Shown here: in pieces, positions 21,283-23,649 of the stretch
How the letters are laid out: the number at the start of each line of letters is the position of its first letter
How positions within the stretch are numbered: position 1 is the first letter of the stretch
Assembly (NCBI GenBank): GCA_039930045.1
Contig: JBDSQB010000009.1
Location: 62,001 to 126,000 of the forward strand
Length of the DNA: 64,000 nt
Origin: Chthoniobacterales bacterium
GTDB taxonomy: Bacteria; Verrucomicrobiota; Verrucomicrobiia; Chthoniobacterales; DASVRZ01
Reading direction: 5' to 3'
Made by a program: the position numbers and the translations under genes
The notes under the pieces: generated by a model
Told to the model about the DNA's origin: nothing
Database searches by the model: none
The model's input: only the letters and a program-made list of their open reading frames with translations

Positions 21283-21423
21283 TCAGGGACGGGCCAAAGC
21301 CCGCGGCGGCGCGAGCTGATAACTGGTGTCCGGAATGTTTTTCTTGATCAGATACCAGACGGCAAAGGCGAGGATGATGGAGACGATTTTGATCTGCCAG
21401 TTGTGCGTGAAAAGATGCTTCAT
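21283..21423 (-). CDS. Miniature CdaR/YbbR-like membrane peptide (46 aa)
   Basis: Starts MKHLFTHNWQIKIVSIILAF and continues AVWYLIKKN, ending LARP. This matches the N-terminal transmembrane entry of CdaR/YbbR proteins (N-W-x-L-K-I-x-S-x-x-L-A-x-x-L-W), but all YbbR repeats are missing: CdaR is normally about 300-480 residues, and this stops after about 20 residues beyond the helix. The start overlaps the cdaA stop by 4 bases (ATGA) and the gene lies 68 bases upstream of glmM, exactly where cdaR sits in Firmicutes. I infer a minimal membrane regulator of CdaA. A truncated remnant is the alternative, though the clean overlap argues for a functional gene. Confidence 0.75.
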   Translation of the reverse strand: MKHLFTHNWQIKIVSIILAFAVWYLIKKNIPDTSYQLAPPRALARP

Positions 21424-22238
21424 GACGCCAGTTTCGTGTCGCTCAACTCATCGCCCACCTCGTCGGCCTCGTCCTCGAAGGACAGCAATTCGTTGATGCG
21501 CGCGCGGAAAGTCTGCGGATTGAAATTGCGCTCGATGCGTCCGCGATGGCAGATGGAAACCGTGCCCGTTTCCTCGGAAGTGACGATGGCGATGGCGTCC
21601 GATTCCTCTGTAACTCCGAGTGCGGCGCGGTGGCGCAGGCCGAGCGAACGGTCGAGATCTTCGCGGGCGCTGACGGGAAAAATGCAGGCGGCGGCTTCGA
21701 TGCGGCCGTTGTTGATGACCATGCCGCCGTCGTGCAGCGGAGTCTTCGGATGAAAGATCGTGAGCACGAGTTCGCGCGAAAGTTTGCAGTCGATGTCCAC
21801 GCCCGTCTCGGTGAAATTGCGGATGTTGGTGTCGCGCTCGAGGGCGATGAGCGCGCCGAGTTGCTTGGCCGCGAGCGCGAAAACGATGTCGGTGAGCTGG
21901 GTTAGGGTTTCCTGTTTTTGCCGGTTTGAAGAGAAAATCGGATGACCGCCGAGGGCCGCCAGAGCGCGACGCAACTCGGGTTGAAAAATGACCACGAGCG
22001 CGATCGCCAAAAACGCCGACAGGCTGCGGATGATCCAGCTAATGACCTTCAGATCGAGGACTTGCGCAGTGAGCGTGAGGGTCAGGAAAATGAGGGCGAG
22101 TCCGGTCAGCACCTTCGCGCCACGCGTTCCGCGAAAGTAGAGGTAGCCGTAATAAATCGCCACCGCGAGGATGCAAATCTCGATGGCCGACGGCCAGTTT
22201 TCGCGGGCAAATTCCAAGAGCGAACGCAGCTTATTCAT
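21420..22238 (-). CDS. cdaA: Diadenylate cyclase (c-di-AMP synthase) CdaA
   Basis: Makes cyclic di-AMP from two ATP at the membrane. 272 residues: three transmembrane helices (about 20-85), then the DAC domain. DAC motifs: LHDGGMVINNGRI (DGG at 170-172, where DGA is canonical), LGLRHRAALG (RHR at 202-204) and SEETG at 221-225. The Ala-to-Gly change in the DGA motif is conservative but notable. It overlaps folP by 8 bases and the mini-cdaR by 4. c-di-AMP controls K+ and osmolyte balance and wall stress; this is family knowledge, not shown here. Confidence 0.94.
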   Translation of the reverse strand: MNKLRSLLEFARENWPSAIEICILAVAIYYGYLYFRGTRGAKVLTGLALIFLTLTLTAQVLDLKVISWIIRSLSAFLAIALVVIFQPELRRALAALGGHPIFSSNRQKQETLTQLTDIVFALAAKQLGALIALERDTNIRNFTETGVDIDCKLSRELVLTIFHPKTPLHDGGMVINNGRIEAAACIFPVSAREDLDRSLGLRHRAALGVTEESDAIAIVTSEETGTVSICHRGRIERNFNPQTFRARINELLSFEDEADEVGDELSDTKLAS

Positions 22239-23085
22239 GGACGCTTGCAGCTTGGCCCAAGATCGCTTCCATCATGCGCAGGGAGTGAAAATTCGGCCGG
22301 ACATCGTGCACGCGGATGATTTCCACACCGGCCTCGCGACAGTGGGCCGTGAGCGCGACGGTCGGCCAGAAACGGTCGTTCGGCGAGTCGGTGCCGATGA
22401 TTTTGCTGAGGAACGATTTCCGCGACACGCCGACCAGCATGGGCCGGTCTCCGAGGCGGAGCAAGGCGAGATTGCGCAGAAGCTCGAGATTATGCGCAAC
22501 GGTTTTGCCAAAGCCGATGCCGGGGTCAAAGACGATCTGACTCGGATCAATTTTTTGTTCAGCGCAGGCGGCGAGGCCCTCCTCAAAGAATGCCCGCACC
22601 TCGCCGACGACGTCGTCATAGCTCGGGGTTTGCTGCATCGTCACCGGCGTGCCGAGCATGTGCATGCAGACGGCTCCGGCTCCGGTCGCGGCGACGACTT
22701 CGAGCATTTCCGGCGCACGCAAACCGCTGATGTCGTTGATGATATTGGCCCCCGCCTCCATCGCGGCGCGGGCCACGGCGGGCTTGCAACTATCGATGGA
22801 AATGAGCACGTCGGACTCTGCGCGCAACGCCTCGATCACCGGCAGCACGCGCTGTTTTTCCTCCTCGATTGAAATGGAACTCGCCCCCGGACGGCTCGAT
22901 TCACCGCCGATGTCGATCACCGTCGCGCCTTCGGCGATCATCTGCCGCGCGTGAGTAAGGGCGGGATCGAGTTGGACAAATTGCCCGCCGTCCGAGAACG
23001 AATCCGGCGTCACATTCAACACGCCCATGATCCAGCCGCCAGTGCGTTGGAAGTCGTATGAGCGGTCTTGGATTTTCCAGATCAT
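22231..23085 (-). CDS. folP: Dihydropteroate synthase
   Basis: Condenses 6-hydroxymethyl-7,8-dihydropterin diphosphate with p-aminobenzoate in folate synthesis; target of sulfonamides. 284 residues from ATG 23085 (MIWKIQDRSYDF); the frame remains open far upstream but that part is not FolP-like and crosses the divergent gene. GVLNVTPDSFSDGG and DIGGESSRPGA are the two Prosite signatures, and FDPGIGFGKT and VGVSRKSFL are the remaining pterin/phosphate sites. It is first in the folP-cdaA-mini-cdaR-glmM string, an order also seen in other phyla. It is divergent from the secreted protein gene with only 45 bases between starts. Confidence 0.95.
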   Translation of the reverse strand: MIWKIQDRSYDFQRTGGWIMGVLNVTPDSFSDGGQFVQLDPALTHARQMIAEGATVIDIGGESSRPGASSISIEEEKQRVLPVIEALRAESDVLISIDSCKPAVARAAMEAGANIINDISGLRAPEMLEVVAATGAGAVCMHMLGTPVTMQQTPSYDDVVGEVRAFFEEGLAACAEQKIDPSQIVFDPGIGFGKTVAHNLELLRNLALLRLGDRPMLVGVSRKSFLSKIIGTDSPNDRFWPTVALTAHCREAGVEIIRVHDVRPNFHSLRMMEAILGQAASVHE

Positions 23086-23130
23086 GGGTGGCGCGGCGAT
23101 TCGAGTTTGATTATACTGCGCTCCACTTTT

Positions 23131-23649
23131 ATGTCCCCCCGCTTTTTGCTCTTTTCCGTTTTCCTCGCGCTCGCCCCGGCCCTGCACGGCCAGTCGAAAC
23201 CCGTCACCGAGACCGGCCCGCTGCCGCCGCCCGATCTTTCCCTCACTCGCGCTAGCACGATTCTCCACCCCGACGACACGAAAACCGTCACCCTCTACGA
23301 CGCGACGAAACGCCAGTCCGACGTGCATTATTACAACGCCGACGGCTCCTGGCGCGCCCACATTATTTACTCGCTCGACACCGATGGAAAGATCAAGTCC
23401 GGCCAGTTTCTCGATCAGAAAGACAAACCCGGCGTCCGCAGTCTGTATCGTTATGGCGCCGAGGATCGCGTGGTCGAGGAGTCGCATTACAATCAGGCCG
23501 GCGCTCTCGTCCGCCGCATGGTCTATGAGTACGGCCTCACGAGTCAGGTCATGAAAACCGTCGCCTACGACGCGCAGGGCAACGTCCTCGGCGTCTGGAC
23601 TCCCAAACGCAACACCAGCAACGGTCCGAATATCCGCAAGCGGCGCTAA
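23131..23649 (+). CDS. Secreted protein of unknown function with MORN-like strands
   Basis: 172 residues. A Sec signal peptide (about 1-21, ending LHGQS) is followed by a Pro-rich linker. Then come repeating Tyr-rich strands: VHYYNADGSWRAHIIYSLDTDGK, about 44 residues later ESHYNQAGALVRRMVYEYG, and VAYDAQGNVLG. The Y-D/N-x-x-G pattern is like short beta-strand repeats of the MORN/RHS type. I do not recognise a family. ATG 23131 is chosen because it gives a clean signal peptide. It shares a 45-base divergent promoter region with folP and is 80 bases from the acyltransferase. Confidence 0.65.
   Translation: MSPRFLLFSVFLALAPALHGQSKPVTETGPLPPPDLSLTRASTILHPDDTKTVTLYDATKRQSDVHYYNADGSWRAHIIYSLDTDGKIKSGQFLDQKDKPGVRSLYRYGAEDRVVEESHYNQAGALVRRMVYEYGLTSQVMKTVAYDAQGNVLGVWTPKRNTSNGPNIRKRR

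Follow-up and report, generated by a model that had tools for sequence, protein, structure and literature searches.

A putative helix-only relative of CdaR encoded between cdaA and glmM in a Chthoniobacterales bacterium

The region between cdaA and glmM in this genome raises the question of what has become of CdaR, the YbbR-domain protein (PF07949) whose gene follows cdaA in Firmicutes and in other classes of the phylum. In the window analyzed here (the whole stretch of 64,000 nt), a single open reading frame (ORF) of 46 codons lies in this place, and the original prediction was that it keeps only the CdaR transmembrane helix and drops every YbbR repeat. The ORF exists as it was described (Table 1), the membrane stretch quoted for it (NWQIKIVSIILAFAVWYLI) is correct, and the 4-nt overlap of its start with the cdaA stop, an ATGA, is confirmed in the sequence. 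We refer to it and its relatives as micro-CdaR.

The locus

Table 1. Features of the cdaA-glmM region; positions are those of the window.
Feature	Position	Strand	Basis
micro-CdaR ORF, 46 aa, product MKHLFTHNWQIKIVSIILAFAVWYLIKKNIPDTSYQLAPPRALARP	21283..21423	(-)	sequence, ATG start
ATGA start/stop overlap of cdaA and micro-CdaR ORF, 4 nt	21420..21423	(-)	sequence
Codons of predicted single helix, residues 3-29	21337..21417	(-)	AlphaFold2, single sequence
K-x6-A-x3-W motif, K12 (21388-21390) to W23 (21355-21357)	21355..21390	(-)	class alignment
cdaA, membrane diadenylate cyclase, 272 aa	21420..22238	(-)	TIGR00159, PF02457
glmM, phosphoglucosamine mutase, 459 aa	19835..21214	(-)	FGTDGVR and SASHNP motifs; name from sequence alone
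folP, dihydropteroate synthase	22231..23085	(-)	name from sequence alone; start 23085 chosen
Promoter-like site before folP	23110..23137	(-)	consensus match only, 10/12

The cdaA product scores above the cut-off of the CdaA equivalog model TIGR00159 (212.2 bits; cut-off 188.8), matches PF02457 with 134 bits, and is the sole DAC protein in the genome. Upstream, folP overlaps cdaA by 8 nt, giving the order folP-cdaA-ORF-glmM, and the promoter-like site before folP is a possible start of the transcription unit. A consensus scan found no terminator-like site on the minus strand from cdaA to glmM, and no Rfam element was found in the region. The ORF adjoins cdaA and lies in the cdaA/glmM gap, which is the CdaR/YbbR slot; since just 68 bp separate it from glmM, no remnant of CdaR lies between the two. 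The short overlap with cdaA is atypical, in that most relatives of the same order overlap it by 34-154 nt.

The helix and its relationship to CdaR

AlphaFold2, run on the single sequence, predicts one helix (residues 3-29), with pLDDT of about 92 at residues 11-20. The window peptide has no match to PF07949, and no family in Pfam or NCBIfam is above its cut-off; DUF6587, YesK, and FeoB_associated were considered as its Pfam family and rejected, their matches being below cut-off and unspecific. In the PDB, no relative was found for the helix, nor for one full-length CdaR of the phylum.

The relationship to CdaR emerges when families are compared. A profile of 37 micro-CdaR peptides matched a profile of N-terminal helices from 22 full-length CdaR proteins (98.1%, E 1.2e-13), and among 110 distinct peptides of the class K12 is present in all, A19 in 107, and W23 in 108, a K-x6-A-x3-W motif that recurs with identical spacing in full-length CdaR. 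Counted from K12, the most conserved positions (0, 4, 7, 11, and 14) share one face of the helix. Conservation shows a significant helical moment in both sets (p 0.006 for micro-CdaR, 0.01 for full-length CdaR), whose conservation profiles are correlated over the non-anchor columns (r 0.68). By both the profile comparison and the motif profile, the N-terminal transmembrane helices of micro-CdaR and CdaR are thus homologous. The same 110 peptides vary freely in their C-terminal tail. On these sequence comparisons the window peptide is best described as a putative helix-only relative of CdaR, rather than filed as a YbbR protein.

Similar transmembrane helices are easily reached independently, and an unrelated small membrane protein that had come to occupy the slot could resemble the CdaR helix by convergence, the more so as the peptide taken singly matches no family above cut-off. 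The strength of the profile match and the shared motif spacing make this hardly credible, as do the common slot and the existence of intermediates in which one or two YbbR repeats follow the same helix.

Distribution and selection

Loci of cdaA were collected by genome search, and the region after each gene was read (136 loci in the class, 50 in other classes). Within the class, 117 loci have micro-CdaR, 14 the helix with about one YbbR repeat, three the helix with two, and two nothing. Micro-CdaR is found at 60 of 61 loci of the same order, which rules out a truncation confined to one strain; the rest of the class has 57 micro forms, 14 of 122-146 aa, three of 229 aa, and one locus with none. 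The 117 peptides have one helix and a median length of 50 aa (range 31-111), lengths that depend on the start codon chosen. In other classes of the phylum, the slot holds a full-length CdaR (more than 300 aa) at 48 of 50 loci; the exceptions are one cut by a contig end (L071) and one of 235 aa (L058). Representatives of the four size classes have 3, 2, 1, and no YbbR domains by Pfam count. A scan of genome contigs gave a single relative, L032 (Victivallales), which has a full-length CdaR.

A split gene, with the YbbR part encoded elsewhere, was also considered. It is excluded in the window's genome (99.9% complete), where no YbbR domain was found anywhere, and was unseen in the micro-CdaR families: YbbR occurs in 30 of 286 genomes of the class, none of them from families whose loci were read as micro. 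Only two changes between micro and longer states are needed on a tree of CdaA with 119 rows, root and direction left open, and the micro state is therefore inherited rather than sporadic. Because full-length CdaR is the form found in other classes and in Firmicutes, the YbbR repeats were presumably lost rather than gained. Homology, position, and the graded intermediates thus bear out the prediction of a peptide reduced to the CdaR helix, as do the absence of YbbR elsewhere, purifying selection in relatives, and strict dependence on CdaA (the last two are treated below).

The helix itself can also be lost. In five loci from genomes with CdaA, the helix is missing from the vicinity of cdaA (L179, L189, L146, L200, and L202). 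Losses exist at L179 and L189, both from one genus of the order, and at L146; family f87 has probably also lost it. Absence from close relatives, which would have counted against the original prediction, was seen within the order in one genus, whose genomes G348 and G370 look like true losses. At L179 (G348, family f6), the slot is filled by a lysine- and phenylalanine-rich, repeat-like stretch.

Selection was measured in relatives, the window having no congener in the set. In seven groups of these, dN/dS ranges from 0.05 to 0.48, counting only codons outside cdaA. In eight species pairs (two of them from one genus), differences in helix codons are biased toward synonymous ones (combined p ~1e-26), with pN/pS of 0.11 in the helix and 0.53 in the C-terminal tail. 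Strong purifying selection acts on the helix in these relatives, the outcome that the proposed check on dN/dS and helix conservation had looked for; the invariance of K12 agrees with it.

A further test is offered by the many relatives of the same order whose helix codons lie within the 3′ end of cdaA. In families where the ORF starts 76-154 nt inside cdaA, the differences collect at the third position of the peptide's codons, corresponding to the first position in the cdaA frame; in family f2 they amount to 0.30 per site at the third peptide position, vs. 0.08 and 0.07 at the others. In five of five families tested, conservation is higher in the peptide frame than in the tail of CdaA. Selection in the overlap thus acts on the peptide, not on the tail of cdaA.

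These measurements weigh on two readings in which the product itself would not matter. The helix might be the functionless leftover of a lost cdaR, in keeping with the disappearance of every YbbR repeat, the freely varying tail, and the complete absence of the helix from a few lineages; but a decaying relic would scarcely show such a pN/pS, keep its lysine in every distinct peptide, or persist at 117 of 136 loci of the class even where it overlaps cdaA or lies up to 1254 bp from it, and we regard this as extremely unlikely. Alternatively, the ORF might be of the leader type, its translation serving to couple that of cdaA to that of glmM, as the window's ATGA overlap and the position before glmM could suggest. 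This is nearly as improbable: constraint acts at the amino-acid level, on one helical face, of a peptide with homology to a known type of protein, and the helix is fused to CdaA in some genomes and present in others where glmM does not come next (e.g., bioD-like genes in family f8).

The link to CdaA and a proposed role

Two kinds of evidence tie micro-CdaR to CdaA. The micro-CdaR profile, which also detects longer CdaR forms by way of their helix, matches 183 of 286 genomes of the class, and CdaA is present in all 183; in the window's own genome the ORF is the single match (E 6.8e-18, with the window peptide included in the profile), which together with the synonymous bias in relatives marks it as no chance reading frame. 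In at least two lineages, CdaA and the helix are joined in one reading frame (L011 of family f11; L203 and L218 of family f8), and the CdaA of family f93 has a similar helix, with R in place of K, as its C-terminal end. As CdaA has its DAC domain in the cytoplasm, these fusions place the N-terminus of the helix inside.

Fusions of CdaA with CdaR are known from some streptococci (PMC10243994), and one locus here (L028; G130, family f18) encodes CdaA and a full-length CdaR as one 602-aa reading frame. The one-chain L011 and L203 likewise set the CdaR helix next to CdaA, but in these micro fusions the helix only is joined, with no YbbR part; in the window the two genes are separate. Nine loci (L205-L213, in genomes G341, G318, G224, G456, G339, G291, G321, G353, and G336) encode another type of diadenylate cyclase, which is divergent and carries a long C-terminal part within the same chain (402-546 aa). 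This part starts with a CdaR-like helix in L207, L208, and L211, and in G321, G353, and G336 the divergent cyclase occurs alongside classical CdaA.

The surroundings of the gene vary. In four loci of family f9 (L049-L052), 137 to 1254 bp lie between cdaA and micro-cdaR, with the peptide nearly unchanged. In three genomes of family f97 (G361, G378, and G398; L214-L216), micro-cdaR is directly before glmM and apart from cdaA, with a phosphofructokinase-like gene upstream of it in L214. In family f8 (L017, L019, L022, L218-L220, L222, and L223), the gene after cdaA and micro-cdaR is bioD-like (TGTDTGVGKT) rather than glmM.

The f97 arrangement could point to a micro-CdaR that, though descended from CdaR, now has as its main partner GlmM or some other peptidoglycan-pathway membrane protein. 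This too is unlikely, if less so than the readings discussed above: the helix is never seen without CdaA, is naturally fused to it, and in f8 lies beside cdaA with no glmM.

The most probable reading is that micro-CdaR is the N-terminal transmembrane helix of CdaR without YbbR, kept across the class as a separate protein of about 40-110 aa and likely a constitutive subunit of CdaA. In Firmicutes, CdaR and CdaA make contact through their transmembrane regions (PMC10243994, PMC8573169). By this model, micro-CdaR would insert into the membrane with its N-terminus inside and pack against the transmembrane part of CdaA, probably on TM1, using the face formed by K12, I16, A19, W23, and I26. As a constitutive small subunit, it might assemble or stabilize the cyclase or set its oligomeric state; its stoichiometry and any effect on c-di-AMP belong to the same conditional part of the model. 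It would have no outside sensor, and is more safely termed a constitutive transmembrane subunit than a regulator.

A candidate contact on the CdaA side is E20, an acidic residue of TM1 (window 22179-22181) that is E in 116 of 117 micro-CdaR loci. Loci with Q20 often have no W at the matching position of the CdaR helix, with only 3-4 independent changes, so that covariation is without power and E20 as the partner of K12 or W23 is no more than a lead. The single-sequence fold of CdaA (pLDDT 43) was too poor for use.

Among known systems, the closest is CdaR/YbbR itself, which shares the slot after cdaA, the K-x6-A-x3-W helix, and the dependence on CdaA; micro-CdaR differs in having 46 aa rather than about 310-330, no YbbR repeat, and no outside sensor part. 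KdpF, CydX, and AcrZ are one-helix subunits of 30-50 aa, often encoded beside the gene of a large partner that they are thought to stabilize or tune. Micro-CdaR is likewise a small helix encoded beside a large partner (an analogy, with no homology claimed), but it is a diadenylate cyclase that it accompanies, and its helix recurs in a larger known partner protein. The literature searched on CdaR and diadenylate cyclase in Verrucomicrobia, on truncated YbbR, and on c-di-AMP in Akkermansia describes no such peptide, although subscription papers lay mostly outside that search and absence from it is no proof.

As the helix has been kept under selection across the whole class, the findings suggest that what the enzyme cannot easily spare is this one helix and not the large extracytoplasmic portion of CdaR. 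It is an evenly balanced proposition that the partner of CdaA throughout the class has been reduced to a single transmembrane helix, in many cases overprinted on the cdaA 3′ end, with the core activity of CdaR residing in the helix and the YbbR sensor being optional. The role of CdaR in the control of CdaA is unsettled, both activation and repression having been reported (PMC10243994, PMC8573169, PMC5207132, PMC9259658), and micro-CdaR bears on it. A natural series runs from three YbbR repeats through two and one to none, always behind the same helix; together with the invariant lysine and the single conserved face, it makes the membrane contact directly testable with short peptides and with natural fusions. 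Micro-CdaR is also a further example of a small membrane protein that is widely conserved, encoded partly in overlapping genes, and covered by no Pfam or NCBIfam model.
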